From an uncultured cyanobacterium (GTDB lineage Bacteria; Cyanobacteriota; Cyanobacteriia; PCC-6307; Cyanobiaceae), in the NCBI GenBank assembly GCA_903935205.1, contig CAIZQU010000078.1, positions 1 to 64,000 on the forward strand: DNA of 64,000 nucleotides, written 5' to 3'. The number at the start of each line of letters is the position of its first letter. The stretch's first letter is position 1. Positions 369 to 57,851 of the stretch are shown piece after piece. The notes beneath the pieces were generated by a model, which was given only the letters and a program-made list of their open reading frames with translations, had not been told where the DNA came from and ran no database searches. A program made the translations under genes and the position numbers.

Positions 369-3300
369 TCAGCGGCCTGGACCGCCGGCTCCTTCGTACT
401 CCTGAAGCAGAGCCTCCAGCTGGTCGTGGAGGGCCGGCATCAGGCCGGCGTTGTAGTAGTCGTCGTGATGCTCCAGGCAGCGGTGCAGACGGGCCCCGCG
501 GCGGGCGTAGAAGCTCCAGAGTTTGGCCTGCGAGGCCTGCAGTGCCCTGGAGCAGAACACCTCCACCTGCAGCGGTAAGCGCTCCGGGTTGTAGTAGGTC
601 TGCAGTTGCACAAAGTAATCACCGCGCAACGGTTGCGTCGGTCTTGGCCTGGCGGTTGGATCCAGCGATTCCGGCGCCAGTTCACCCCTGGAGCGCAGCA
701 GCGTCCAGCCGTGGAAGCGGAGCGCTTGCCAGGCCGCGACCAGCCGGGGGGCTATCGCGCTGCGCTGGCCATGCCGCAGCCGGCGCAGTCGTTCTGGCCA
801 GCGTTGCCGCTGACGATCCAGCAGCAGATGCAGGCGCAGGCGACGGTGCAGATCCGCCGTTGCTGCCGTATCCATCAGCGCAACCATGCCGACTTCCGCC
901 CCGCGTCGCAGCAGCTCAGCCGCCACAGCCCAGGCATACCAGCCACCGGCCGAATAGGCCAGCAGGTGATAGGGCCCGCTGGGCTGGAAGCGAAGCATCG
1001 CATCGGCATAATGCCGCGCCATCTCTTCCACACTCTTCTGGCGTTCGCCGCTGCCATCGAACCCGATCGCCTGCAGGCCATGGACAGGGCGATGGGGCGC
1101 AAAGGTGCGGGCCAGCTCGATGTGAATGAACACATCGCCTTCACCGCCATGGATGACAAACAACGGCCTGGCCTCTCCCCGGCTCTGCAGGGTCACCAGT
1201 GAGCCATCGCTCTGCCTGCCGCTCAGATCGCGCTGCTCCAGCCGCACCGCCAGCGCCTCGATCGTCGGCGCCTGAAACAGCACCGCCAGCGGCAGGTTCA
1301 CCCCCATCTCCCTCTCCAGCAACGCCGCCAGTGCGGCACTGCGCAGCGAGTTGCCCCCCAGCTCGAAGAAGGGATCCCTCACCCCGAAATCCCCGTGCCC
1401 CAGCACCTCGGACCAGAGGGCATGCAGACGCCTCTCCATCCCGTTGCGGGGGGCCAGACGTCCGCTCGGTTCGCTGGCGAAGCCAGGTTCCGGCAGGGCC
1501 CGGCGATCGAGTTTGCCGTTGGCGGTGAGTGGCAGATGGTCCAGAGGGATGAAGGCAGACGGCACCATCGGCGCCGGAACGCGGGCGCTGAGGTGGTCGC
1601 GCAATGCCCCGGCGAGGTCGCTGCTGGAGCCGGATGGGCTCGGCACCCAGTAAGCCACCAGGCAGGGATCGCGCCCTTCCGCCTGGTGCAACACCACCGC
1701 GGCGGCGGCAACGGCCGGGTGGCTGCACAGGTGGGCTTCGATCTCGCCGGGTTCGATGCGAAATCCCCGCAGCTTCAGCTGTTGATCGATGCGGCCATGG
1801 AAGCTCAGACAGCCATCGGATCGCCAGGCGACGAGATCCCCGGACCGATAGAAGCGCGCCCAACAATCCGCGGCCTCCGGATCGACGCCGAAGGCCTCGG
1901 CGCTGCGTTCCGGGTCATGGAGATAACCCCGGGCCAGACCGACGCCGCCGATCTGCAGTTCTCCCGGTACTCCGATCGGGCAGAGCTGGCCGGCCGGGTC
2001 GACGATGCGCACCTGGGTGCCGGCAATCGGCCGACCGATCGGCACCGCCGCTGGGTCGACTCTCTCACCAGCGGCAAGGCGGTGACAGCTGGTGAAGGTG
2101 GTGGCCTCGGTGGGGCCGTAGCCATTGATCAGCATGTGGCCGGGGGGCATGCGGTCCAGCAGCCGTTGCACCAGGACCGGCGACAGCACATCGCCGCCGG
2201 CCAGAACCTGGCTCACCCCCGCCAGGGCATCGGCCTGGTCCTCCACCATCGCGTCAAACAGACCGGCCGTGAGCCAGAGCGTGGTGATCCGATGGCGCCG
2301 CAGCAGCGCCGCCAGCTCCCGCAGCGAGGGCTGGCCCTGGGGGGCCAGCACCAGGGTGCCGCCATGCAGCAACGGACCCCAGATCTCGAAGGTGGCCGCA
2401 TCAAAGGCCACCGGCGCCAGCTGCAGCACCACGGCTCCAGGGCCGAGTCGAAAGCCGTTGCAGGGATCCACCAGCCGCAGGATGGCGGGGTGCTCCACCG
2501 CCACACCCTTCGGGATGCCGCTGCTGCCTGAGGTGTAACAGACATAGGCCAGCGGGGCACCGGCGATCGCGGCGTCGGGTGGTCGGGCCGCGGTCAGTGG
2601 TGTCAGACCCTCGCGGCTGATCAGCAGGGAGCAGCCGCCCTGGTCGAGCAGCTGCTGGCGCCGTTCCAGCGGCCAGCTGGGATCCAGGGGCAGGTAGGCC
2701 CCTCCCGCCTTGAGGATGGCCAGCAGGGCCACCACCAGCTCGGCTGAACGCTCCAGGCAGACCGCCACCAGCGCCTCGTTGCCCACACCCCGCGCGATCA
2801 GCTCCTGCGCCAGTCGTTCGGCACGGGCTTCGAGCTGGCGGTAGCTGATGGCCTGGTCGGCGACCACCAGGGCCACGGCATCGGGGCTGCGTTGCACCTG
2901 CTCGGCAAAGGCCTGATGGACCAGGCGATCAGCCGGATCGCAGCTGGGGCCCCGCTGCCAGGATTCAATCCGGGCACGCTCCCGATCCCCCACCATGGGC
3001 AGGCTGGCGGCAGCGCCATCCGGACCGCTCAGCGCCGCGGCAAGCAAATGGCGAAGATGGCTGGCGAGGCGGGCGATGCGATCGGCGTTGTAGAGATCCT
3101 GGCTGTAAATGATCTGGCCCTCGATCGCACCATCACCGCCAATAGCCAGGTGGAATTCCAGATCCAGCCGACAAACATCCGCTCCCCATTCCAGCGCTTC
3201 GACCCTCATTCCATCCAGCTGAGGAACAACCTTCTCGGTCTGCTCATTCAGCTGGACCATCACCTGCACCAGTGGATTGCGGCTGGTGTCGCGATCCGGC

Positions 3301-6300
3301 TGCAAGGCCTCCACCATCTGTTCAAACGGCAGCTCCTGATGCTGATAGGCGGCCAACGAGCGGTCGCGAACCTCGATCAGGACGTCACGGAAGCTGAGAT
3401 CCGGATGGATCTGAAGGCGTATCGGCAGCAGATTGACAAAAAAGCCGATCAGCTCCTCCAGGGACTGATGATTGCGGCACCAGAATGGTATGGCGATCGC
3501 GAAATCGCTCTGTCGGCTATAGCGATGCAGCAATACCGCCACCAGAGCCACAAGGCCCATCTGCAAGGTCGCCCCCTCCTGCTGGCAGAGCCGGCGCAAG
3601 GCCTCCACCTCTGCGGCCGGAATCGTGCAGGCCTCGCTGCCGCCCTGCTGCGTGGGCTGCAGCGGCCGGGCGCGATCGCTGGGGAGCTCCAGGGGTGCGA
3701 GTCCCTCCAGCTGCAGCGTCCAGTGGTCGAGCAAGCGTTGCCGTCGGCTGCCGCTGAGGCGCTGCCGCTGCCAGAGGGCGTAATCCTGATAGTGGATGTC
3801 CAGCGGCCTGAGAGCCGGGCTGCGGCCGGCGCGATAGGCGTTGTACAGCTCCCCCAGATCTCGGGCCAGCACCTGGCGGGACCAGCCATCCGATGCGATG
3901 TGATGGTGGTTGATCAGCAGCAGATGCTCCCGGTCGCTCACCATCAGCAGCCGTGCCCTCAGCAGCAGGCCGGAGTTCAGATCAAAGGGAAGGGTCTGCT
4001 CCTCCCGTCGCCAGTCTTCGAGAATGGCGTGGGGATCCCGCTCCCCAACGCCATCGCAATGCAGGCAGAAGGCTCCAGCGGGATGCACGATCTGGACCAC
4101 CTCGCTGCCCTGCAGGCGGAAGGACGATCGCAATGTGGCGTGGCGCTCGATCAGGGCGCCCAGACTGTGCTCCAGCGCCGCGAGATCCAATGCGCCGCTG
4201 AAACGCCAGAGCCCTGGCAGCTGATAGGCCGTCAGTCGGGGTTCGAGCTGCTGCAGAAACCACAGCCGGCTCTGGGCATGGGAGGCGGCAAAGGCCTGGC
4301 AGCCCTGCGGCCAGTCCCCCGGCAGGGGACGGGCGGTGGCGATCTCCGCCGGGGGGGCGGCCTCAGCCGCCAGAGCGGCGATCAGCTGCGCCTGCCCAGC
4401 GATCGTGGGGGTCTTGAACACCGCGGCCAGCGATGGTGCCCTGCCAAGGCTTTGCTCGATGCGGGAGACCAGGCGGGCGGCGGCGAGGGAATGGCCGCCG
4501 ACCAGAAAGAAATGGTCGTCGATGCCAAAGGCCGCATGGCCGAGAACCTCGGCCCAGAGGCTGTGGAGCTGCCGCTGCCGTTCGGTCTCTGGAGCCTGGC
4601 TGCCCTGCGGATCCGCCGCGAAGCAAGGGGCTGGCAGGGCGCTGCGATCGAGCTTGCCATTGCTGCTCAGCGGCAGCTCGTCCAGCTCCACAAAGGCGGC
4701 CGGCACCATGACCTCCGGCAGCCGGCCACGCAGATGGCCACGAAGGTCGGCGGGCGAGGCCTGGGCCCGGCCCCCAGCCCAGCGGCGGGCGGTCCAATAC
4801 GCCACCAAGGCGGGCGTCGACCCGGACCTGTCCCGCACAATCACCACCGCCTGTTCGACAGCGGGGTGGTCCAGGAGGTGGGCCTCAATCTCGCCGGGCT
4901 CGATCCGCACACCATGCACCTTGATCTGCATGTCCCTGCGGCCGAGAAACTCAATGGCGCCATCGCTCAGATACCGGGCCAGATCACCGGTTTTGTAGAG
5001 ACGGCCGGGGCCCCAGGGGTTGTTGATGAAGCGTTCGTCCGTCAGTTGTGGACGGTTCTGATAGCCGCGGGCAACCTGCACACCACCGATATGCAGTTCA
5101 CCCGGCACGCCGATCGGAACGGGCTGAAGCAGGGGGTCGAGAAGATAGAGCTCGGTATTGGCGACAGGCCGGCCGATCGGCACACCAGGTCCGTGATCCT
5201 CGGCTTGGCAACGCCACTGGCTGACATCGATCGCCGCTTCGGTTGGGCCGTAGAGATTGATCAGCTCCCCATGGCCCAGGACGCTGAAGAACTGACGGGC
5301 CAGCTCCGAGGACAGGGCCTCGCCACTGCAGAACACCTGGCGTAGGCCTGTGCAACGCTCGACACCCGGCTCACGCAGAAAGATCTGCAACATCGACGGG
5401 ACGAAATGGAGCGTTGTGATCTGCTTTCGCTGGATCAGATCGATCAGGTAGGCTGGTTCCAGATGTCCATGGGGACGCGCCAGGATCAATCGAGCCCCGA
5501 CCATCAGGGGCCAGAAGAACTCCCAGATCGAGACATCGAAGCCAAAGGGCGTTTTTTGCAGCACGCCATCTGCCTCGCTGAGCGGATAGTCGTGCTGCAT
5601 CCACCAGAGGCGATTGCACAGGCCCGCCTGATGATTGAGCACCCCTTTGGGTTGGCCGGTCGAGCCAGAGGTGTACAGCACATAGGCCAGCTGCTGGCCA
5701 TGACAGGGCCGCTGCGGATTGTTGCTTGACCGTTGCTTGATCGCCGCCGTCTGTTGATCCAGGGCGATGATGGTTGTGCCGTTACGGTCGCGCGGCAATA
5801 GGGCCAGAAAACGCTCTTCGCTCAGGATGCGTGCAACCCCTGAGTCCTCCACCATGAAGCTCAGCCGCTCCGCCGGTTGGCCTGGATCCAAGGGCAGATA
5901 GGCGCCACCGGCCTTGAGCACGGCCAGCAGGGCCACCACCAGCGCAACGGAGCGCTCCAGGCAGAGGCCCACCACCGTCTCCGGCTTCACTCCCTGGGCG
6001 ATCAGCTCATGGGCCAGCTGGTTGGCCCGTTCGTTGAGCTCCTGATAGGTGAGCTGCTGATCCTCCACCACCAGGGCCAGGGCATCGGGGGTGCGCTCCA
6101 CCTGCCGCTCGATCAGCTGGTGCACCCCAAGATCCGGGACGGCCAGGCGGGGGCCTTGCTGCCAGCGCTGCAGCTGCTGACGTTCCGCGTCCTGCAGCAG
6201 GGGGAGTGCCTCGCCCTGGGCATCCGGAGCCTGAACGGCCGCAGCCAGCAGGGTCTGAAGGTGACCCGTGAGGCGCTGGATGCGATCGGCCGCGAAGCGA

Positions 6301-9567: not shown

Positions 9568-9889
9568 GGCGGTGCTGAACGGTCGGGGTGGAGCGGCGGC
9601 TGGGGTTGGCAGGGCGACCGCGCGCGAGGCGGGCTGAATGGGGGTCGGGAGCGGACTCGCGATTGAACTCGCAGCCAGATCGCTGGTGCGGCAGCCTCCC
9701 GGCCCGGCCCGGCCCGGCCTGCGGCTGACCCGGCTGATCCGTTGGACCCGGCTGGGCGGCTGCGGCTGCTGAATGGCAGGTCTGTGGCGGCTGCTCTCAG
9801 GATGGCCGCCCGGCGCGATGCTGACCGGCGGTTTTCCGCTGGCCTTCCGTCCGTTTGCCCCTGGCCGCTGGCCGTGTCCCCGCCGACCG

Positions 9890-10375
9890 CTACCGCTGGC
9901 CGCTATCGCTGGCCGTCGGCTGCTGGCCGCAACCGCAACCACTGATCGCTCAACAGCTGGCCCTTTGGCCGGGTGCCCTGGTCCGTTGGCCGGCTGGCAG
10001 CTGACCCCTAACCGCTGACCGCTGACCGCTGACCCCTAACCGCTAACCGCTGACCGCTGACCGTTGGCTGCTGGCCGTCGGCTGCTGGCCGCTACCGCAA
10101 CCACTGATCGCTCAACAGCTGGCCCTTCGGCCGGGTGCCCTGGTCTGTTGGCCGGCTGACCGCTGACCGTTGACCGTTGGCTGCTGGCTGCTGACCGCAA
10201 TCGCAACCGCTGATCGCACAACAGCTGGCCCTTCGGCCGGGTGCCCTGGTCCGTTGGCCGGCTGACCGCTGACCGTTGACCGTTGGCTGCTGGCTGCTGA
10301 CCGCAATCGCAACCGCTGATCGCACAACAGCTGGCCCTTCGGCCGGGTGCCCTGGTCCGTTGGCCGGCTGGCCGT
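9890..10375. repeat. Tandem repeat array, 106-bp unit, about 4 copies
   Basis: A unit running from CGCAACCGCTGATCGC through CAACAGCTGGCCCTTCGGCC to GGTCCGTTGGCCGGCTGACC recurs. The anchor CAACAGCTGG starts at 9951, 10113, 10219 and 10325, giving spacings of 162, 106 and 106 bp. The last two units are virtually identical. The 162-bp interval contains an extra run of short 'CCGCTGA/CCGTTGA/CCCCTAA' heptamer-like repeats (10005-10065). The array ends about 110 bp before the mtnA start. Open frames across it are by-products of the periodicity. Confidence 0.85.
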
Positions 10376-12230: not shown

Positions 12231-12525
12231 GAGCCGGTTGCGCGTAGGTCGACAGGCCAGTTCCTGAACAGAGGCAGAGCCGATCGGGCGCCGATCGCGG
12301 CCTCAGCCTGAGAGAAAGGGCATCAGGACCAGGGCATCAGGAACAGGGCATCAGGAGCATCGCCGCAGCTTGATCGCAAGATCTACTGCGGCGCAATCAT
12401 TCTGCCCTTTGGTACGGCGCTGCAATCGCGATGCGGAGGGGAGGAGAGCCATGGGAGAGCCAGTTCCGTTCCACAGCGAGATCTCCCCATGGATCTGAGG
12501 CCACTGCGGCTACGCGCAACAGGCT
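12231..12525 (+). repeat. Inverted-terminus repeat element, copy 2
   Basis: This copy lies 32 bp after copy 1 in the same orientation. The left end is GAGCCGGTTGCGCGTAG and the right end CTACGCGCAACAGGCTC, a 17-bp inverted repeat with one mismatch. The interior has CAGAGGCAGAGCCGATCGGG, three units of a GGGCATCAGGAACA-type repeat at 12318-12360, GATCGCAAGATCTACTGCGG and two CCATGG-centred blocks. It is nearly identical to copy 5 (27635-27952) over the right half. Confidence 0.8.
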
Positions 12526-14615: not shown

Positions 14616-14769
14616 TTCATCTCCACAACTTCACTCCAACTTCACTCCAACTTCACTCCGGCTTCACACCAGCTTCACACCAGCTTCACACCAGCTTCAC
14701 ACCGGGTTCGCTCCGGGTTCGCTCCAACTTCAATCCGGTTTCACTCCAACTTTGCTCCAGCTCTGCTTT
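14616..14769. repeat. 11-bp minisatellite (CAACTTCACTC family), ~14 units
   Basis: The sequence reads as successive 11-mers: CAACTTCACTC three times, then CGGCTTCACAC, CAGCTTCACAC three times, CGGGTTCGCTC twice, and variants ending near 14769. More units of the same kind recur at about 14912-14975, after the 131-bp inverted-repeat element. The gradient of variants suggests slippage followed by point mutation. Apparent open frames here only translate the period. Confidence 0.85.
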
Positions 14770-14780
14770 CTTTGGTTTCA

Positions 14781-14911
14781 GGGCATCTCGAAAAATTGAG
14801 ATTCCAGGGTCACCCAACAATTGAGACTCATTACCTCGACAGGGTCGACCGCCTCTGTGTAGCCGCGTCCTTGATCCCGAATCCACGGAAAAGACAATTT
14901 TCGAGGTGCCC
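14781..14911. mobile_element. 131-bp element with 17-18 bp inverted ends, interrupting the minisatellite
   Basis: GGGCATCTCGAAAAATTG at 14781-14798 is an inverted copy, with one base change and one missing base, of CAATTTTCGAGGTGCCC ending at 14911. The ~96 bp between are lower in GC than the surroundings and unrelated to the 11-bp repeats on both sides. The layout is what a MITE or the relic of an insertion sequence would give. No transposase is encoded and no target-site duplication could be fixed with confidence. Confidence 0.55.
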
Positions 14912-14998
14912 TTCACTTTGACTTCACTCCAACTTCACCGCAACATCACTCCAGCCTCCCTCACTTCAAACTCCCCGATCCCATCCGGCAACCATCAC

Positions 14999-15106
14999 GC
15001 CAACCAATCCACCAACCAATCCACCAACCAATCCACCAACCAATCCGCCAACCACCTGCCAACCAATCCGCCAACCACCTGCCAACCACCTGCCAACCAG
15101 CCTGAG
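14999..15106. repeat. 12-bp minisatellite (CAACCAATCCAC family), ~9 units
   Basis: Units CAACCAATCCAC are repeated, grading into CAACCAATCCGC and CAACCACCTGC variants. They end about 90 bp before the methyltransferase start codon. A second minisatellite with a different unit so close to the 11-bp one suggests a region prone to slippage and free of selection for coding. Confidence 0.8.
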
Positions 15107-27634: not shown

Positions 27635-27952
27635 AGCCTGTTGCCCATCGGTCGACAGGCCAGGCCCCGACCAGAGGCAGAGCCGATCGGGCGCCTGTCG
27701 CGGCCTCAGCCTGAGACAAAGGGCATCAGGAACAGAGCATCAGGAACAGAGCATCAGGAACAGGCCATCAGGAACAGGCCATCAGGACCATCGCCGCACC
27801 TTGATCGCAAGATCTACTGCGGCGCAATCATTCTGCCCTTTGGTAAGGCGCCGCAATCGCGATGCGGCGGAGAGCCATGGGAGAGCCAGTTCCGTTCCCC
27901 AGCGAGATCTCCCCATGGATCTGGAGCCGATACGGCCACGCGCAACAGGCTC
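27635..27952 (+). repeat. Inverted-terminus repeat element, copy 5 (longest)
   Basis: The left end is GAGCCTGTTGCCCATCGG and the right end CACGCGCAACAGGCTC. Its first ~90 bp are virtually identical to copy 4. It carries about five 14-bp GCATCAGGAACAGR units at 27722-27788, against three in copies 2 and 6, which accounts for its greater length. The right half (GATCGCAAGATCTACTGCGG through CCCATGGATCTGGAGCC) matches copy 2 almost base for base. Confidence 0.8.
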
Positions 27953-29239: not shown

Positions 29240-29530
29240 GAGCCTGTTGCGCGTAGGTCGACAGGCCAGGCCCTGAACAGAGGCAGACCCGATCGGGCGC
29301 CTATTGCAGCCCCAGCCTGAGACAACGGGCATCGGCAACAAGGCATCGGGAACAAGGCATCGGGAACATCGCCGCACCTTGATCGCAAGATCTGGTGCGG
29401 CCCAATCCTTCTGCCCTTGGGCGCGGCGCCGCAGTCGCGCTGCGGATGAGATCCATGGGAGACCCAGTTCCGTTCCACAGCGCGATCTCCCCATGGATCT
29501 GGAGCCAATACGGCGACGCGCAACAGGCTC
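29240..29530 (+). repeat. Inverted-terminus repeat element, copy 6 (between two convergent stop codons)
   Basis: The left end is GAGCCTGTTGCGCGTAG at 29240 and the right end CGACGCGCAACAGGCTC to 29530; the termini pair over 15 of 17 bp. The interior has GAACAGAGGCAGACCCGATCGGG, three GGCATCGGGAACAA units, GATCGCAAGATCTGGTGCGG and two CCATGG blocks. It fills the whole space between the stop of the small gene (29239) and the stop of the ComM-like gene (29531), with no spare base on either side. Confidence 0.85.
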
Positions 29531-31721: not shown

Positions 31722-33746
31722 TTGAACCCCCTGAAGGCCCTCCGTGAGCAGCTCGGCAAGCTGCAGCGCCTGGCCCAGCCCTATTTCCTTCCCCTCGATG
31801 CCAACGGCCAGGCGGCGAGCGGCGCCCAGTTCCTGCTGCTGATCCTGGCTCTGGTGGCGGTGGTGGTGGGGGTGACCCTGTTGCTCCTGACCGCGGCCGT
31901 CGGCGTCAGCGGTGCCCTGATTCCAGAGCTGCAGGGCCGTTTCCTTCCCGGTGTGCCCCAACAGGTGGCCTCGCTCTGGAGCGGGCCGGTTGGGCCGGTG
32001 ATCATGGGCCTGGCCGCCGCCGGGTCGTTCTGCTTCTGGTGGTTCCGCGGCCGGTTGCGCCAGGGACGCTGGCTGCCGTGGTTGCTGCTGGGGGTGATCA
32101 TCCTGCTGATCCTGGTGATCAACGGCATCAATGTGGGCATCAGTTTCATCGCCCGCAATGTCGACAACACCCTGGTCGCCTACGACAAGGATGGCTTCTG
32201 GAAGACGGTCGCGATCTATGCCTTCTGCCTGGTTCTGGCCCTGCCGATCCGGGCGATCCAGAGCTATCTGATCCCCAAGCTCGGGCTAATGTGGCGGGAA
32301 TGGCTGAGCAGCCGCCTGCTGCAGCGCTACATGAGCAACCGCGCCTACTACGTGCTCAATCCGAACGACGAAAGCCAGGAGGAAATCGACAACCCGGACC
32401 AGCGGATCTCTCAGGATACGGCCAGCTTCACAGCAACCAGTCTGAGCGTGACGGTAGAGATTCTCTCGGCACTTCTGACCTTCTTCAGTTTCATTATTGT
32501 GCTGCTGAGCATCAACAGTACCCTGGCCTTGTGGCTGCTGATCTATTCGGTGGCCGGCACGGCGGTGGTGGTGTTTGCCAGCCGTAAGCTCGTCAATCTT
32601 AATTACCAACAGCTCAAGCTCGAGGCCGACTTCCGCTACGGATTGGTTCACATCCGCGACAATGCCGAGTCGATCGCCTTTTACCGCGGTGAAAAGCAGG
32701 AGACCCATGAGGGAGAACGGCGCCTGGGCGGTGCGATTCGCAACTACAACCGCCTGATCATCTGGGAGGCCCTGATCCAGGTGATCCAGCGCTCCTACGA
32801 TTACTTTTCGCGCTTCCTGCCCTGGCTGGTGATCGCCCCGATCTACTTCGCCAAGCAGGTTGATTTCGGCGTCTTCGGCCAGGCCAGCATCGCCTTTTCC
32901 CAGGTGCTGTTCTCGGTCAGTTACATCGTCAACAACATTGACCGCCTCGCCGCCTTCTCGGCCTCGATCAGCCGCCTCGAGGGCTTCCAGAGCAAGGTGG
33001 AAGGCATCGCCGCCGCCCGCGCTGGCGCCGAGAACGGGGCCGGGGGCGAGCTTGCTCCCAAGCCAGCGGACAAGGCCTCCTCGATCGTGGTGCGCCATGT
33101 CGATCTGGTGCCACCCCGCTCCTCCCGCACCCTGATTCGCGATCTCAACCTCACGGTCGGTCCGCAGCAGCGGCTGCTGGTGGTGGGTCCCTCCGGCTGT
33201 GGCAAGACCTCCTTCCTGCGGCTGGTCAGCGGCCTCTGGCCGGCGGCCAGCGGTCAGGTGGAGCGGCCGCCGGTGGGGGAGCTGATGTTCATTCCCCAGA
33301 AGCCCTACATGCTGCTTGGCAGCCTGCGGGAGCAGCTCTGCTATCCCCAGCCCCCCGATCGCTTCAACGATTCCCAGCTCCGCCATGTGCTGACGGAAGT
33401 GCGGCTGCCGGAGCTGGTGCAGCGCTATCCGGACCTCGACATCAAGCAGGACTGGCCCCGGCTGCTCTCGCTGGGTGAGCAGCAGCGCCTGGCCTTCGCG
33501 CGGCTGCTGCTCAATGCCCCTCGCTATGTGGTGCTTGATGAAGCCACCAGCGCCCTCGATGTGGGCACCGAAAAGCTGCTTTATGAGCTGCTTCTGCAGC
33601 GCGATCTGGCCTTTGTGAGCGTGGGCCACCGGCCCACCCTGGTCGACTACCACGACACCGTGCTGGAACTCGATGGCACGGGCGGCTGGCGCCTGCTGCC
33701 GGCGGCCGGCTATAGCTTTGGGCGAACTGTTGGAACCGATGCCTGA
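31722..33746 (+). CDS. ABC transporter, fused permease and ATPase (SbmA/BacA - YddA type)
   Basis: This 674-residue half-transporter would work as a homodimer in the membrane. The permease half has about six helices and ends near residue 440; it includes EWLSSRLLQRYMSNRAYYVL and NPDQRISQD, typical of the YddA/ABCD/Rv1819c group. The ATPase half has Walker A VVGPSGCGKTSFLRL, signature LSLGEQQRLAFARLLL and Walker B YVVLDEATSALD. Relatives carry cobalamin, peptides or long-chain acyl compounds, so the substrate is open. The start is a TTG at 31722 (TTG AAC CCC CTG). Its stop overlaps the start of the HLIP gene. Confidence 0.92.
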   Translation: MNPLKALREQLGKLQRLAQPYFLPLDANGQAASGAQFLLLILALVAVVVGVTLLLLTAAVGVSGALIPELQGRFLPGVPQQVASLWSGPVGPVIMGLAAAGSFCFWWFRGRLRQGRWLPWLLLGVIILLILVINGINVGISFIARNVDNTLVAYDKDGFWKTVAIYAFCLVLALPIRAIQSYLIPKLGLMWREWLSSRLLQRYMSNRAYYVLNPNDESQEEIDNPDQRISQDTASFTATSLSVTVEILSALLTFFSFIIVLLSINSTLALWLLIYSVAGTAVVVFASRKLVNLNYQQLKLEADFRYGLVHIRDNAESIAFYRGEKQETHEGERRLGGAIRNYNRLIIWEALIQVIQRSYDYFSRFLPWLVIAPIYFAKQVDFGVFGQASIAFSQVLFSVSYIVNNIDRLAAFSASISRLEGFQSKVEGIAAARAGAENGAGGELAPKPADKASSIVVRHVDLVPPRSSRTLIRDLNLTVGPQQRLLVVGPSGCGKTSFLRLVSGLWPAASGQVERPPVGELMFIPQKPYMLLGSLREQLCYPQPPDRFNDSQLRHVLTEVRLPELVQRYPDLDIKQDWPRLLSLGEQQRLAFARLLLNAPRYVVLDEATSALDVGTEKLLYELLLQRDLAFVSVGHRPTLVDYHDTVLELDGTGGWRLLPAAGYSFGRTVGTDA

Positions 33747-34041
33747 CCCCGCCACTCCAGCCGATCCCCGTCGCGCCGCGGCCCGCGCTGGCGCTCCTGC
33801 CACCGCCGTCAACGCCGGCCAGGATGTGCCCGGCTCCGCCACGGCGGCAGCCCAGGCCACCGCTGGCGCGCCGGTCTCCCGGGCCACCACCCCCACCACC
33901 GGTGTGGAGCCGGCCTTCGGCTGGAGCACCTACGCCGAGCGGGTCAACGGCCGCTTTGCCATGCTCGGCTTCGCCGCGGTGCTGCTGATCGAGGCCCTCA
34001 GCCGCGACACCTTCCTGCACTGGGCGGGGTTGGTGCCCTGA
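33739..34041 (+). CDS. High-light-inducible (HLIP / one-helix chlorophyll a/b-binding) protein
   Basis: The C-terminal third has the chlorophyll-binding helix ERVNGRFAMLGFAAVLLIEA, followed by the luminal end LSRDTFLHWAGLVP. HLIPs sit in the thylakoid membrane, bind chlorophyll and carotenoid, and protect photosystem assembly under stress. An Ala/Pro/Thr-rich N-terminal ~60 residues is longer than in minimal HLIPs. The ATG at 33739 overlaps the ABC transporter's last 8 bases (ATGCCTGA), so translation is probably coupled. The alternative upstream frame is inside the ABC gene and not credible. Confidence 0.92.
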   Translation: MPDPATPADPRRAAARAGAPATAVNAGQDVPGSATAAAQATAGAPVSRATTPTTGVEPAFGWSTYAERVNGRFAMLGFAAVLLIEALSRDTFLHWAGLVP

Positions 34042-34429
34042 GCCCAGGGGGGGGCTTCCAGCGACGGCCCCCTGGCCGCGGCCACCGCCATTGGCGTACC
34101 CGAGTCCATTCGGCGGTGGCTCTGGGCGCCAGGCAGACCCAGTCCCCCGGTCTGGCCTGATCAGCCGAGGCACCGAGTTGGCTCAGTCTGAGCCTCAGCC
34201 TGATCCATGGTCGGCAGGCCGCAGGGCTGGCGGCCATGCAGCTCGCCGGCGGCTCGGGCCGGTTGGAAACGGTGCAGCAGCTCCGCTCCCGGCCCGCTCG
34301 GGCGAGCCGCCCCGCTGGCGGCACGAGGGCGGCGAGGCGAGCTGCTCAAGCATGGGCAGATCGATGGGGCTGGGTTCAAAGCAAGGGTGCAATCTGCTAG
34401 GTTTGAGAAGTTGAAATGAATGGGGCTAA
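34042..34429. other. Gap between the HLIP gene and the lic-like operon
   Basis: About 390 bp without a recognisable gene. It should carry the promoter of the three-gene operon that follows. The last ~60 bp (from 34375) are less GC-rich than the rest and contain an out-of-frame ATG at 34417. Confidence 0.3.
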
Positions 34430-36364
34430 CTGCGTAAGGCTTTTGTTATCCTCGCTGCCGGATTCGCCCAACGTTTCGGCGGCCAACATCACAAGGCTCT
34501 GGTTCCCCTGATCCTCTCCGAAGGAACCTTGCCGCGCCTCGTGCGCCAGCTGATTCTGCTCGCACCTGAAGCTCCAATCTGCATCGCCGTCGGTCACCGT
34601 GCCTCTGAGGTTGAGGCCGCTGTTGATGGCCTTTCCCCCAGCCTTGTCTGTGTCCAGGCTCCCCAAACCACCGCGACCTCGTTGCTCCACAGCCTCACCG
34701 CTGCACTCGATCGCCTGGCCGACCATGCCGATCTGCAGGGGGCATGGGTTTTGTTCGCCGACACCCTCTACCATCCCGATGCTCTGGTTCGCCTGATTCA
34801 GAGCGATGCTGATTCTCCCGTGCTCGCCAGCCAGCCCGTTCAGGCTGAGGCCAGCGCTGAGCCGATCGGAGTGCTTGTCGAGCCTGGCAGCCAGCGGCTG
34901 CTGGCCCTGGGGCCGGCTGTGCCCAGCTGCGATGGGGTGATGGCAGCTGCGGTCTATTGGCCCCGATCCTCCTGGTCCTTTGTTATGGCAGCCGTTGCCC
35001 GGGGCCTGGTCCTTCAGTGGCAGGTCCTGCGCGATTACCAAGGCCAGGGCCCCGTGACTGTCCTCCCCCTGGGGCGCGGTCAGACCCGCGACATCGACAC
35101 CCCAGCGGACGCGGGAGAAGCCCTGGGCCATCTGCGCGACCCGTTGGCCGTCAGCTTCTTCCGGCGCAGCATCAGCAAGGATGAACGCAACCTCAGCCAG
35201 GGCGACAGGATCACCAGCTCCGCCTATCGCAAGGTGTGCATGAGCGAGGGGCTCGCCCTCTGCGAAGCCCATGCTTTGGACTGGCTCCATGGCACCGCGG
35301 GTTGCCGGGTGCCCGCCTGCCTGGATCGTCAGGGTCGGATTCTGTTGCTGGAGCCGATCCATGGGATCCGCCTCTATGACCTGCTGCGACTGTTGCGCTC
35401 CATCGAGCGGCTCAGACCTGAGCAGGCCGCCCAGGCCAGAGCCGCATCGCTGCAGTTGCTACGGCGAAGCCTTGAGCAGTTGTGGTGCCTGCAGAGGGCC
35501 TTGCTGGCCTGGCCGTTGGCCCACGAGCGGCCGGCCTATCCACTCTCCAGCCATCTGGCGGGGCTATTGGCGACCTTGCTGCGCCTGCTGGGACTGCCGT
35601 CGCTGCAGCCAGGCGAATGCCGCGAATTGCGTGGGTTCGACCGACTCTGGCGGACGGCCGATGTGCTGATTCCCTTCCGAGATGCCACGGCAAAAAACAC
35701 CATTGTTCTGATCCCCGAGCTGGCGCCAAGGGCGGCTGAAAGCAGCGGCGATCGCATCGCCAAGATCGCGGAGTGGCTTGATCGTGACGAGAGCGCTTCT
35801 GTGCCACTGGTGGATATCGATTTCACCTCCGTCGTTCATCGCACCGCCCCGGAGGATGATTTGTTCAGTCTCTTGGCCCATGCCGGTAGCCTGCCGGTGG
35901 GTCGCAGGCTGCTGGCCGAGTTGGTGCCCAGCGCCGCCAACTGGCCGACGGCTGTGGCGGACCTGGTGAGCTGGATCGATCCTGCGATCCGTCGCGATGG
36001 CGGTCGGGCCGCCAGGGCGCTGCTGGTGCGCTACCTCCGATTTGGTGGACGGAAATTGCTGTATCGAATTCTCAATCCCGCCGCGTTCTGTGTGCGGTTT
36101 CGCTATGACGATCCCGTCTTTTATTTCAGGCAGCTTCCCCATCTGCTCAGCCAGCTCGATCCTGGATTCCACACCTCCTTTCCCTGCCTCTCCGCCCGGC
36201 TCGACCAGCTCAGCCAGACCGTTTCCCTCCTGCCAGCCTGGAGGGATGCAGAAGCCGGTCAGGACCTCTATCGCTCCCAGCTCGGTGCCAGCCTGACCTA
36301 CTGGCAGGAAAGCCCGCTGGAGATCCCCGATCGCGGTGCCCCATCCCTCTGGGGCCGGTCATGA
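34430..36364 (+). CDS. Nucleotidyltransferase fused to an APH/choline-kinase-like domain (LicC-LicA-like fusion)
   Basis: Residues 1-~215 resemble a sugar/choline-phosphate nucleotidyltransferase, with KAFVILAAGFAQRFGGQHHK. This is the LAAG..xR.G..xK loop that binds the NTP (LAAG 8-11, Arg15, Lys22). Residues ~230-560 resemble aminoglycoside/choline kinases: EAHALDWLHGTAGCRVPACL, then ILLLEPIHGIRLYDLL, a catalytic-loop-like FRDATAKN (Asp418, Asn423) and a metal-binding-like PLVDIDF (Asp464). In choline-decorating bacteria LicA phosphorylates choline and LicC activates it with CTP. The NTP loop is in frame only from a stop at 34427-34429, so a CTG at 34430 is the likeliest start; a TTG start at 34529 would lose it. 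It overlaps the next gene by 4 bp (ATGA). The kinase reading is an inference from motifs. Confidence 0.65.
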   Translation: MRKAFVILAAGFAQRFGGQHHKALVPLILSEGTLPRLVRQLILLAPEAPICIAVGHRASEVEAAVDGLSPSLVCVQAPQTTATSLLHSLTAALDRLADHADLQGAWVLFADTLYHPDALVRLIQSDADSPVLASQPVQAEASAEPIGVLVEPGSQRLLALGPAVPSCDGVMAAAVYWPRSSWSFVMAAVARGLVLQWQVLRDYQGQGPVTVLPLGRGQTRDIDTPADAGEALGHLRDPLAVSFFRRSISKDERNLSQGDRITSSAYRKVCMSEGLALCEAHALDWLHGTAGCRVPACLDRQGRILLLEPIHGIRLYDLLRLLRSIERLRPEQAAQARAASLQLLRRSLEQLWCLQRALLAWPLAHERPAYPLSSHLAGLLATLLRLLGLPSLQPGECRELRGFDRLWRTADVLIPFRDATAKNTIVLIPELAPRAAESSGDRIAKIAEWLDRDESASVPLVDIDFTSVVHRTAPEDDLFSLLAHAGSLPVGRRLLAELVPSAANWPTAVADLVSWIDPAIRRDGGRAARALLVRYLRFGGRKLLYRILNPAAFCVRFRYDDPVFYFRQLPHLLSQLDPGFHTSFPCLSARLDQLSQTVSLLPAWRDAEAGQDLYRSQLGASLTYWQESPLEIPDRGAPSLWGRS

Positions 36365-37335
36365 CGGCGCTCAGTTCCAGCCAGAGCCGCGCCCTGGCGG
36401 CCACGCTGGCCAGGCTGACGGGACCGCTGCAGGATCCCCCCGTCCCCACGACACCCGCCAGCCCCGAGCATCTGCTCGGGCTGATCGCTGCCCGCCCATG
36501 GCGCCGCAGCGCCTTGGATGAGGCCTCCGCTGCCGCTATGGCGACCAAGCTGGATCGCGCCGTGGCTGCGGGTGCCCCGATCGCCTTCAGCCTTCCCTTC
36601 GGTGGCTACCGGGGCTGGCAGCTCCCCTCGGCGCCGGATCCTGACTGGTCGGAGGTGTTCTGGCTCGACTATCTGCGCAGCTTCGCCGAGCGTCTGGTGG
36701 CCGTGCACCCTGCCGGTGTAAGGATCGCCCTGAGTTATGTGGGCGGTGTGATGGAGTGGGTCAATCAACTGCCGCAGCAAGCACAGAACCGTTACCTCGA
36801 TCGCCTGGACTTGCTGTTGCAGTTGCGCTCGACGCCCCGCCTGCGCTTTCAGCTTGTCGATCATGCCGACGCCCATGGCGGCAGGAGCGAGGTGCTGGCG
36901 CTGTTGCAGGCGCGCGAATCCGAGCAGCCCCCACCCAGCGATGCCGAGCTGAGCCGTGCCCGTCGCAATCTGGTGCCGTTGACAGGAGCGTGGGACGGCC
37001 AGCCTCCACCTGAGGCCCTGGTTCGCCAGGCGGCCCGCCGCTGTGGCGTGTTGATGGGCCTGGAGTCACGCCGTGCCTTCAACAAATTCGGCACCCACCT
37101 GCAGCTCTCCCATGGTCGCGGCGCCTCCCTGTGCTTGCACATCGGCAGTTGCCGCAGTGCCGTGGCTCAGCCGTGGGTCTCGACCGGGTTTCTGCAGTGG
37201 TGCCCGCAGCGCGACGCCTGGATCGAACAATTGGCCACCGGAGAGGCGGCGATGCGGAGGCGGCCAACCATCGGCGTTGAGCATCCCCTCATGGCGGTGT
37301 CTCCGGCCCTGCGCACCCTGCCCCTGCTGCGATGA
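36361..37335 (+). CDS. Uncharacterised protein between the LicCA-like and LicD-like genes
   Basis: The 324-residue product is soluble, without signal or membrane segment. Distinct stretches are APIAFSLPFGGYRGWQLPSA, DWSEVFWLDYLRSFAERLVA, a possible Tyr-Val-Gly-Gly turn (ALSYVGGVMEWVN, ~124-136) and KFGTHLQLSHGRG. The order 'small-molecule-like pocket ... DxxExxxLxxLxxxxxxxxxxxPxG' is faintly like PvcA/DIT1-type isonitrile synthases, but I do not consider that established. Start and stop overlap both neighbours by 4 bp (ATGA), so it is translated as part of the operon. Its role is probably in making or attaching the group that LicD transfers. Confidence 0.75.
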   Translation: MTALSSSQSRALAATLARLTGPLQDPPVPTTPASPEHLLGLIAARPWRRSALDEASAAAMATKLDRAVAAGAPIAFSLPFGGYRGWQLPSAPDPDWSEVFWLDYLRSFAERLVAVHPAGVRIALSYVGGVMEWVNQLPQQAQNRYLDRLDLLLQLRSTPRLRFQLVDHADAHGGRSEVLALLQARESEQPPPSDAELSRARRNLVPLTGAWDGQPPPEALVRQAARRCGVLMGLESRRAFNKFGTHLQLSHGRGASLCLHIGSCRSAVAQPWVSTGFLQWCPQRDAWIEQLATGEAAMRRRPTIGVEHPLMAVSPALRTLPLLR

Positions 37336-38234
37336 CGCCCGTCAGATTGTCCGAAGCTGACCTGCAGCAGCTGCACCGGATTCAGCTGGAGATGCTCTGT
37401 GAGCTCGATCGCATCTGCCGGCAACTGGGTGTGGTCTATCAGCTGGCCGCAGGCACGTTGCTCGGCGCCGTACGTCACGGTGGTTTCATCCCCTGGGATG
37501 ATGATATTGATGTTGTGATGACGCGCTGGGATTACGATCGCTTTCTCCGCCAGGCTCCCGCACTTCTTGACAAGCGTTTATTTTTGCAGACTCGGAGTTC
37601 CGATCCTGGCTACCCCCATCTCTTTGCCAAACTGCGCCGTCATTATAGTGTCTATCGCGAGAGCTACTGGCGCGATCATCAGCAGCATCACGGCATCTAC
37701 ATCGATATCTTCCCCCTGGATCCCGCCTGGCCAGGCAGCCGCCTCTGGCGTGGCCTGTTGCCGCTGCTGCGGCTTCTGGAGGGCCTGAGCCATCTGGCGG
37801 CCCATCCCCCCAAAGCCCGGCCGGCCCCGAGGCGCTCCCCCGGTCCCTGGAGGCTCGCTCCCCTCCTGCGCCGGTTTCTGTCGATGCTGCCGCCATCCCT
37901 GTGGGGGGTGGTGCATGACCGGCTGTTGCGTTGGCTCGCCTTCGTCCCATCCAGGCAGCTGGTCTGCCTGGTCAGTGGTGGCGCCCTGGCGGACCAGCGC
38001 TGGCGGGCCATGGTGCGACCGATCGCGGAAGGCATGGCGACCGTTTCCCTGCCGTTTGCAGGTCATTCCTTTCCCGCAACCGCCTATTACCACCAGGCCC
38101 TCACCCGCCTGTACGGCCACTACATGGAGCTGCCGCCGGTCGACCGCAGGATTCCAGGGCATCCTGTGGTCGAATTCCGGCTGCCACCCCAGGATCGCTG
38201 GCCTGGCCAAGGATCCGGACCTGAGCTGCGCTGA
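37332..38234 (+). CDS. LicD family phosphotransferase
   Basis: The 300-residue product is a clear LicD/Fukutin-type protein: LQQLHRIQLEMLCELDRICR, QLAAGTLLGAVRHGGFIPWD and the metal-binding DDDID at 56-60. LicD proteins transfer phosphocholine or a related phospho-group from a nucleotide-activated donor to a glycan such as teichoic acid, capsule or lipopolysaccharide, usually at the inner face of the membrane. The long middle part has a possible amphipathic or membrane-associated stretch (SRLWRGLLPLLRLLEGL). Overlap with the preceding gene (ATGA at 37332) implies coupled translation. No choline permease (LicB) lies within reach. Confidence 0.9.
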   Translation: MTPVRLSEADLQQLHRIQLEMLCELDRICRQLGVVYQLAAGTLLGAVRHGGFIPWDDDIDVVMTRWDYDRFLRQAPALLDKRLFLQTRSSDPGYPHLFAKLRRHYSVYRESYWRDHQQHHGIYIDIFPLDPAWPGSRLWRGLLPLLRLLEGLSHLAAHPPKARPAPRRSPGPWRLAPLLRRFLSMLPPSLWGVVHDRLLRWLAFVPSRQLVCLVSGGALADQRWRAMVRPIAEGMATVSLPFAGHSFPATAYYHQALTRLYGHYMELPPVDRRIPGHPVVEFRLPPQDRWPGQGSGPELR

Positions 38235-38488: not shown

Positions 38489-38986
38489 TCACGGCACCTG
38501 AATCAGATCCACCTGCCACACCCCGCCGCGGCTCACCTCCACCGCCAGCTCGCGGCCATCGGCCCGCAGGTTGACGCGCCTGGGGACGCCCGGCGGTTGC
38601 ATCGCGATCGGTTCGAGGGCCATCAGGCCGCGGCGGTAGAGCACCAGCTCGGTGCGTCCCTCCAGGTGTCGCACCAGGGCCAGCCGCTCACCGGCTGCAT
38701 CGACCGACACCGCGATCGGCTGGGCATCGGGCCGATTCAGACCCGGCAGCGGCACCGGCAGCTGGCGCTCCAGATCCACCAGCTGCACCTGTTCCCGCCC
38801 GTCGCGGCCGCCGATCAGGGCCAGCCATCGGCCCGCCAGAGCGGGAGATCGGCTGCTGCCGATCGCCTCCAGGCGGCTGTTCAGGCCGGGCAGGGGCTGG
38901 GGCATCGGGCCCAGGCAGCCGGCCAGGGGGACCGTCAACACCACCGTCAGGGCGGCCGTTCTGACGGCGGCGTGCCGGCGGTTCAT
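38489..38986 (-). CDS. Lipoprotein with TolB-like propeller repeats (second of a pair)
   Basis: This 165-residue product starts MNRRHAAVRTAALTVVLTVP followed by a lipobox LAGC, so it should be a lipid-anchored periplasmic protein. Repeats such as LAGRWLALIGGRDGREQVQLVDL and VDAAGERLALVRHLEGRTEL have the 'S.DGR.LA....G...I.L.D' pattern of TolB/WD40-like beta-propeller blades. Only three or four blades are present, too few for a closed propeller, so it may pair with its neighbour. Its start overlaps the stop of the upstream gene by 4 bp, suggesting that the two products are made together. Confidence 0.7.
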   Translation of the reverse strand: MNRRHAAVRTAALTVVLTVPLAGCLGPMPQPLPGLNSRLEAIGSSRSPALAGRWLALIGGRDGREQVQLVDLERQLPVPLPGLNRPDAQPIAVSVDAAGERLALVRHLEGRTELVLYRRGLMALEPIAMQPPGVPRRVNLRADGRELAVEVSRGGVWQVDLIQVP

Positions 38987-57275: not shown

Positions 57276-57509
57276 GGGGCAGGGAGGAGATGCCAGGGCC
57301 GATCTCAGGTCGCATCAGCGCATCAGCGCATCTGCGCATCAGAGCATGATTCCGCCCTCGATTTCAGGCCAGCGCTGCCATCCCCCTGAGGCCCAGCCAG
57401 CGCCCCATCCGGGTGGTTGCTGCGATCCGATGGGGACTGCCGGGTTCCGTGGTTCGGTGATGCCCACCCGGTCGGGTCTCGCCCAGCACCAGCCGCCGGT
57501 GCCATACTT

Positions 57510-57793
57510 CAGGGGTCGGTCTTCGGGCCGACTAGGTGGCTCACACCGGTGTTTCGGACAGCGGTTCGATTCCGCTCAGCTCCATTCCCCCGCCGCCGGC
57601 CCCATGGCCCGGCAGTTCCGGGGCTGCAATGGTTTCGACGGGGCATGAGGAGGGTGACTGAAGCCTGCTCGGTCAGAGCAAACCCGTAACAGCGAACAAC
57701 ATCGTTCGTTTCTCCCGTCAAGCCGCCCCTGTGGCTGCCTGACCCTGTAAGGGAGATGGGGTGAGGTCAGCCTTATCACCCAAATGACCCACG
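57510..57793 (+). ncRNA. ssrA: Transfer-messenger RNA, circularly permuted (two-piece) gene
   Basis: The tRNA-like 3' half comes first: a T-arm AGCGG-TTCGATT-CCGCT (57560-57576) and acceptor strand CAGCTCC plus A, ending at 57584. A ~35-nt spacer follows. Then the 5' half begins at 57620 with GGGGCTG, which pairs with CAGCTCC, and GGTTTCGACGGG. The tag frame at 57692-57742 encodes ANNIVRFSRQAAPVAA then stop. Processing removes the spacer to leave two RNA pieces. The tag is the known type of marine and freshwater Synechococcus/Prochlorococcus. tmRNA with SmpB frees stalled ribosomes and tags the product for Clp proteolysis. The 5' limit (~57510) is approximate. Confidence 0.95.
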
Positions 57794-57814
57794 GGGCCTG
57801 GAAGGGCCCTTTTT
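57794..57814 (+). terminator. Rho-independent terminator of ssrA
   Basis: GGGCC (57794-57798) and GGCCC (57805-57809) form a stem around TGGAAG and are followed directly by TTTTT (57810-57814). It is placed right after the last paired region of the tmRNA. Confidence 0.8.
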
Positions 57815-57851
57815 CGTGGCTGGTCCAGCCTCTGGCCGGAGAGCCGGGCCC

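Follow-up and report, generated by a model that had tools for sequence, protein, structure and literature searches.

A LicD-type operon encoding a predicted remote relative of isonitrile synthases in an uncultured cyanobacterium

The 64,000-nucleotide stretch of contig CAIZQU010000078.1 (assembly GCA_903935205.1), from an uncultured cyanobacterium of the Cyanobiaceae and referred to below as the window, carries three overlapping genes. Gene 1 encodes a nucleotidyltransferase domain fused to a kinase-like part, gene 2 a middle protein predicted to be a remote relative of the isonitrile synthases (PvcA/IsnA/DIT1 fold), and gene 3 a LicD-family transferase. LicD-type pathways are already known for choline and phosphonates, as well as for pentitols, and isonitrile synthases are known for small metabolites. 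The presence of a PvcA-fold enzyme within a LicD pathway is unexpected, and no description of LicD paired with an isonitrile or isocyanide synthase or with DIT1 was among the papers listed by a literature search in open-licence PMC.

The operon, its relatives and the middle protein

The three reading frames, the 324-residue length of the middle protein and both ATGA overlaps (36361–36364 and 37332–37335) were confirmed as given in a first-pass annotation of this DNA. The frame of gene 1 opens at 34430 with a CTG codon, immediately preceded by an in-frame TAA. Its first ATG, GTG or TTG is the TTG at 34529, which lies inside the nucleoside triphosphate (NTP) transferase domain, so that a start there would lose the LAAG..R..K loop; the ATGs at 34416 and 34420 are not in this frame. 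Since the Rhodobacter relative of gene 1 described below has an ATG at the position equivalent to the CTG, the window gene would start either at the CTG itself or at a codon masked by a frameshift or base error.

The synteny search for the trio proposed in the first-pass annotation did retrieve the same order elsewhere. A Rhodobacter metagenome-assembled genome (MAG; contig JAIXRW010000014.1, locus L006) has the identical trio order and gene 1 fusion, with identities to the window of 46% for gene 1, 52% for the middle protein and 44% for LicD. In G021, which belongs to the same genus as the window (locus L004), the nucleotidyltransferase (428–1171) and the kinase-like protein (1182–2375) are encoded separately. 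The middle protein of G021 is 47% identical to that of the window, and its fourth gene (3264–5046) encodes a longer protein related to gene 3 through the LicD core only (23% identity). This protein reaches 15.6 bits against the LicD family PF04991, below the cut-off, and retains the GTLLGxVR and DDDID motifs. The order nucleotidyltransferase, kinase-like, PvcA-like and LicD is kept in three genomes, spanning cyanobacteria and Rhodobacter. The gene set is thus beyond chance, its order being kept in the two other genomes, as are its sequences except for the G021 LicD. The one-gene fusion highlighted at first pass, and read there as kinase/cytidylyltransferase, is indeed present in the window and in Rhodobacter, but it is not essential: the split genes and different LicD of G021 indicate an optional fusion and an exchangeable transferase. 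The nucleotidyltransferase, the kinase-like part and the PvcA-fold protein stay together in all three genomes, and their conservation beside a different LicD is what would be expected if the donor were constant while the acceptor changes. The LicD-position protein of G021 also carries about 280 N-terminal residues without a recognised family, and the end of its gene is overlapped by a convergent TagD-like cytidylyltransferase gene.

The middle protein had been listed at first pass as a new component without assignment. It stands as a new component, and it can now be assigned to the PvcA/IsnA fold. Gene 2 alone matches isonitrile synthase chains in the PDB at E 0.46–0.51, close to an unrelated receptor chain (E 0.73). 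When a profile of the three middle proteins was run against 177,635 PDB sequences, PvcA came first (E 0.0022), followed by two PIsnA, and these were the sole matches at E ≤ 5. Profile–profile comparison by hhalign of the three middle proteins with three PvcA proteins gave 87.0% (E 4.1e-6) over 109 columns, to be compared with 0.12% and 0.74% for unrelated control pairs. In the reverse search of 727 open frames with a PvcA profile, the middle proteins ranked fifth to seventh, behind the three members of the profile and one distant PvcA-like protein (L015). The predicted structure points in the same direction: at E ≤ 0.001, Foldseek returns eight matches, each of them PvcA or PIsnA, and the VIA comparison gives Z 12.1 for PvcA (3e59; root-mean-square deviation, rmsd, 4.5 over 245 aligned residues), 11.5 and 11.4 for PIsnA, and 7.6 for the best unrelated row. 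Profile, profile–profile, reverse and structure comparisons thus all predict a remote relationship between the middle protein and isonitrile synthases. The tyrosyl-tRNA synthetases found at Z 7.6 and below are read as sharing a Rossmann-like arrangement with it. Weak isolated matches of single members to DUF6009 (E 0.052), RTG2_C (E 0.21) and formimidoylglutamate deiminase (E 0.022) were dismissed, like the receptor chain mentioned above.

Several observations weigh against this assignment, or at least against a conserved chemistry. The Pfam family DIT1_PvcA (PF05141) matches only one of the three middle proteins, that of a relative (E 0.15), with 12 bits for a cut-off of 26.4, and the reverse-search E-values are individually weak (0.087, 2 and 3.9). 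The model has a mean predicted local distance difference test (pLDDT) of 58.5, the five models ranging from 41.0 to 58.5, and its residues 250–324 fall below 50 and are unreliable. In an alignment that is uncertain outside the 109-residue core, the six proteins (three PvcA and three middle proteins) share 16 of the 103 columns invariant in PvcA; at the other 87, at least one middle protein differs. The CSDG motif has V, C or T in place of its Asp, the PWHG motif V in place of its His, and the set of residues invariant in the comparators (AFPxKSP, CSDG, IRLSIHPQP, TPWHG and others) is not preserved. These comparators are three in number, two of them 68% identical to each other, and come from a PF05141 search of 299 genomes from the phylum of the Rhodobacter MAG (four matches, three over the cut-off). 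With most PvcA-invariant residues replaced, isonitrile chemistry may have been lost in the middle protein. The same family had no match in a set of 99 relatives that contained the genomes of the window and of G021, and none in 14 controls either, so that this search does not establish absence.

The likeness to PvcA, IsnA and Dit1 therefore lies in the fold and in local sequence over about 109 residues. In contrast to these systems, the window trio lacks a PvcB/IsnB oxygenase, and the partners are a nucleotidyltransferase, a kinase-like part and LicD. By analogy with PvcA, the product might be an isonitrile or a formamide, and this chemistry is uncertain. PMC7949033 and PMC7345447 give ribulose-5-phosphate as a substrate of PvcA enzymes, and the latter reports that the product of yeast Dit1 is most likely formyl-tyrosine, not an isonitrile, which implies that the fold family can perform other chemistry. 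The middle proteins would represent a divergent branch of this fold, with altered conserved residues, and could serve to probe its chemical range. Another genome encodes a distant PvcA-like protein (L016, 1248–2093, minus strand; 22 bits to PF05141), the neighbours of which look by eye like 5-oxoprolinase subunits; it is possibly a further branch of the fold family.

Table 1. Coordinates of the operon genes and of the flanking border genes in the window
Feature	Position	Strand	Description
Left border gene	33673..34041	+	Chlorophyll a/b-binding, Hlip-like; match in 42/42 genomes of the genus
Gene 1	34430..36364	+	NTP-transferase domain at the N-terminus (residues 1 to ~225), with the kinase-like part fused at the C-terminus
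Kinase-like part of gene 1	35117..36361 (boundary set in this analysis)	+	Residues ~240-600; motifs only
Gene 2	36361..37335	+	324 amino acids; predicted to be remotely homologous to the isonitrile synthases (PvcA/IsnA/DIT1 fold)
Gene 3	37332..38234	+	LicD-family phosphotransferase (GTLLGAVRHGGFIPWDDDID)
Right border gene	38489..38986	-	165 amino acids, no Pfam match; adjoins the left border gene in 3/6 relatives read

Nucleotidyltransferase, kinase-like and LicD parts

The nucleotidyltransferase announced at first pass in gene 1 is borne out by both family and structure matches. Its N-terminal domain matches the MobA-like NTP transferases (PF12804) with 34.3 bits, above the cut-off of 27, and is modelled with pLDDT 71–90 in 16 of the first 22 ten-residue blocks. 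VIA aligns it with GlmU (Z 20.1, rmsd 3.0, 219 aligned), PntC-AEPT (Z 19.4) and IPCT-DIPPS (Z 17.8); in the Foldseek list, PntC-AEPT ranks first and LicC fiftieth. The LAAG-x3-R-x6-K loop is present in all three nucleotidyltransferases (window, Rhodobacter and G021), and the acidic pair D111 and D223 is conserved. Membership of the GT-A-like NTP transferases, in the fold class of LicC, PntC, GlmU and IPCT, is well supported. Differences of less than one in VIA Z count as ties, so that the nucleotide and the substrate are not readable from the list.

This last point bears on a sugar-nucleotide pathway, in which the N-terminal domain would be a sugar-1-phosphate nucleotidyltransferase associated with a sugar-kinase-like part, and the middle protein would formylate an amino sugar. 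We consider it unlikely: LicD proteins are known to transfer phospho-alcohols and are not known to transfer sugars, and the top VIA matches are tied, even if much of that list consists of GlmU and other sugar nucleotidyltransferases. The probable formyl-tyrosine product of Dit1, a relative of the PvcA enzymes, would suit such a formylation (PMC7345447).

The C-terminal part of gene 1 was also proposed at first pass to be kinase-like, with a D-x4-N loop and a later Asp. Both motifs are present (RDATAKN and DIDF), and the aligned sequences of the window and its two relatives all share the D and N of the loop as well as D-x-DF. Kinase motifs indeed occur in the expected order, namely a candidate beta3 Lys, an alphaC Glu, a LEPxxGIRLYDLLRLL hinge, a PFRDATAKN loop and VDIDF; the Lys, the Glu, the LE..xGIRLYDL stretch, PFRDATxKN and D-x-DF are conserved across the three sequences. 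The profile comparisons do not extend this motif-level support and argue against a kinase. Neither choline kinase (PF01633), nor APH kinase (PF01636), nor any other Pfam kinase model matches this part in scans at E ≤ 5 and E ≤ 10, the latter in a setting where HMMER discards most matches above E 0.1. Its profile finds no PDB sequence at E ≤ 5, hhalign gives 0.8% against 13 APH domains, and the APH profile gives E 19. Beyond the nucleotidyltransferase domain, the gene 1 model has low confidence, with pLDDT mostly 27–64 over residues 240–600, and the fold-search lists for the whole protein are filled by matches to the nucleotidyltransferase domain.

Two regular expressions were written post hoc from these motifs. 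When each of the three sequences was shuffled 5000 times, the long pattern was never matched, and the short core was matched 12, 18 and 3 times, respectively. Among 495 open frames, 30 contain the short core. The long pattern matches five rows, namely the window and Rhodobacter genes, each represented by two frames with different cuts, and a single APH frame; the G021 kinase-like sequence itself fits neither pattern. As a post hoc construct, this regular expression is weak evidence for a kinase. In our judgement, a true kinase fold is nevertheless probable. That this part could instead be an unrelated helical domain, the substrate arriving already phosphorylated, is thought possible, if doubtful; every profile and fold test is negative or of low confidence, as this would predict, whereas the ordered conservation in three sequences of the Lys, the Glu, the LE..GIRLYDLLRLL-like stretch, RDATxKN and D-x-DF speaks for a kinase. 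The shuffling result does so as well, but with a post hoc pattern that the G021 sequence misses. The kinase-like assignment made at first pass is therefore upheld by motifs, and not by the Pfam, PDB-profile and APH comparisons or by the low-confidence model.

The LicD assignment of gene 3 is straightforward, with 115.2 bits to PF04991 (cut-off 22.6; 114.8 for the Rhodobacter LicD) and the core motifs GTLLGAVR and DDDID. Its only credible PDB match is fukutin-related protein (FKRP; E 1.7e-5), which we take to be a ribitol-5-phosphate transferase. This relationship brings in a pathway through a ribitol-like cytidine diphosphate (CDP)-pentitol, in which the PvcA-fold protein would handle a pentulose phosphate only, the nucleotidyltransferase would make CDP-pentitol and the FKRP-like LicD would transfer pentitol phosphate. 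The TagD-like cytidylyltransferase beside the G021 locus fits this scheme, as does the use of ribulose-5-phosphate by PvcA enzymes (PMC7949033 and PMC7345447). However, ribulose-5-phosphate requires no kinase, a reductase is absent from the gene set, and the FKRP match spans only the LicD core, so that such a pathway appears quite improbable.

A possible pathway and its comparison with known systems

We favour an activate-and-transfer pathway of the lic type, which would have the middle enzyme modify a small molecule and LicD transfer the phospho-group; we hold its chances to be about even. The kinase-like part of gene 1 would phosphorylate a small hydroxylated molecule, which the nucleotidyltransferase would couple to a nucleotide, most likely cytidine monophosphate (CMP). 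The gene 2 product would modify the small molecule before or after this activation. By analogy with PvcA, it might take one carbon from a pentulose phosphate and convert a primary amine into an isonitrile or formamide; alternatively, it might simply make use of a pentulose phosphate. LicD would then place the phospho-group of the activated donor on a glycan or lipid at the surface. An amino-alcohol is the simplest substrate class compatible with a hydroxyl kinase step, nucleotide activation, LicD transfer and amine modification, and the resulting surface would bear a phosphate-linked modified amino-alcohol and not phosphocholine. A point against this interpretation is that no glycan-synthesis gene was found among the nine neighbours scanned.

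The more specific version, in which the amine of an amino-alcohol is converted so that a CDP-linked donor and LicD place an isonitrile (or N-formyl) group on a glycan, is drawn by analogy and rather unlikely. If true, it would mean a covalently displayed metal- or protein-binding chemistry, horizontally shared between cyanobacteria and Rhodobacter. More generally, an operon joining the LicD and isonitrile-synthase logics predicts a modified amine covalently shown on the bacterial surface, and provides a compact three-gene system for testing this prediction.

The first-pass annotation had suggested, by analogy with lic loci, that choline or another small alcohol is phosphorylated, activated and transferred. 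The lic-like logic is retained, but nothing specific indicates choline. As in Lic-1 (LicA, LicB, LicC and LicD), a nucleotidyltransferase of the LicC fold class, a kinase-like partner and LicD share one operon; in contrast to it, the kinase part is not recognised by profiles, the trio has no permease gene and a PvcA-fold enzyme is added. An ordinary phosphocholine pathway would make gene 1 a choline kinase and cytidine triphosphate (CTP):phosphocholine cytidylyltransferase, with LicD transferring phosphocholine and the middle protein being accessory or acceptor-specific. The NCBIfam match of gene 3 is a cholinephosphotransferase model, though with 56 of the 225 bits needed, far below the cut-off, and LicC does appear in the gene 1 fold list. 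Against this, the choline kinase family is not matched, and no LicB permease was recognised by eye in the frames of the three loci, where no dedicated LicB search was made. PvcA-fold enzymes have no known role in phosphocholine synthesis, and choline, without a primary amine, is a poor fit to a PvcA-like reaction. We thus regard ordinary phosphocholine as quite unlikely, and keep the lic-like pathway with a modified amino-alcohol as the preferred interpretation. A LicC–LicA fusion apparently also exists in Treponema denticola, although no paper naming it was among those listed from open-licence PMC.

Two further systems offer partial parallels. PntC phosphonate tailoring, which proceeds through CMP-aminoethylphosphonate (CMP-AEP), also relies on a fused LicC-like nucleotidyltransferase, PntC-AEPT being the top Foldseek match of gene 1. 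Its fusion partner is a transaminase instead of a kinase-like part, and the window trio has no phosphoenolpyruvate (PEP) mutase. PMC6697681 reports LicD-like or glycosyltransferase genes near PntC systems, and LicC-like enzymes specific for other substrates. In the rhabduscin cluster (isnA–isnB–glycosyltransferase), an isonitrile-synthase gene is likewise coupled to a transferase, and the product is thought to act at the bacterial surface; there, however, the transferase is a glycosyltransferase and the product is reported to be non-covalently surface-associated (PMC6386379).

Rarity, genomic setting and other features of the window

The middle protein is rare, with matches in two of 60 relatives, one of 386 genomes in a draw from the phylum and two of 400 in a draw from the family (counts that include the query genome; up to five candidates per genome were scored in the large draws). 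In a draw from the Rhodobacter family, two of 394 genomes gave a match: the known MAG and G615, a match of 20.9 bits over 65 residues with one stop that was set aside as chance. The kinase-like part occurs in two of 42 genomes of the genus, and gene 1 in two of the 60 relatives. In a collection of genome contigs, 89 stretches fit two peptide patterns and two of these encode relatives, so that more diverged members may be missed; 35 stretches fit the patterns for close relatives of gene 1, none of them encoding one. Viral contigs gave 37 and 7 fitting stretches and no relative. Plasmid and phage records gave no match, the phages being searched with the middle protein only.

The two border genes (Table 1) were read in six relatives. 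They are adjacent in G008, G036 and G023, with 6, 22 and 6 bases between alignment ends, and separated by about 6 kb of other DNA in G027 and G010; in G024, the right border gene was not found within the stretch read. Third-position G+C is 0.72–0.79 in the three operon genes, to be compared with 0.83–0.89 in nine neighbours. The variable slot and the lower third-position G+C fit an acquisition of the operon, which has apparently been inserted there. One of the nine neighbours is an ABC transporter, also present in relatives without the operon. In Rhodobacter, the operon is flanked by a peroxidase, RecJ, an AraC-type regulator and a short-chain dehydrogenase (four frames scanned), and its G+C falls inside the range of its locus. 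This context suits a Rhodobacter chromosome, a binning error being possible.

Other genes occupy the slot in two relatives, at loci L077 (5873–12322) and L079 (4518–10285). By eye, they include a toxin–antitoxin-like pair and a protein that has repeats and a PEP-CTERM-like tail; in L077, the right border gene is also matched a second time, in part. Elsewhere in the window, ARAGORN predicts a transfer-messenger RNA at 57495–57833, with an asterisk flag that is read as the permuted (two-piece) form. Tandem repeat arrays lie at 9886–10374, with units of up to 162 bases, and at 14629–15104, with 8- to 24-base units in a 2-kb stretch of GC skew -0.20. Similar 14-base tandem units (GGCATCAGGAACA-like) are found at three separated places, 12317–12356, 27723–27787 and 29328–29368.

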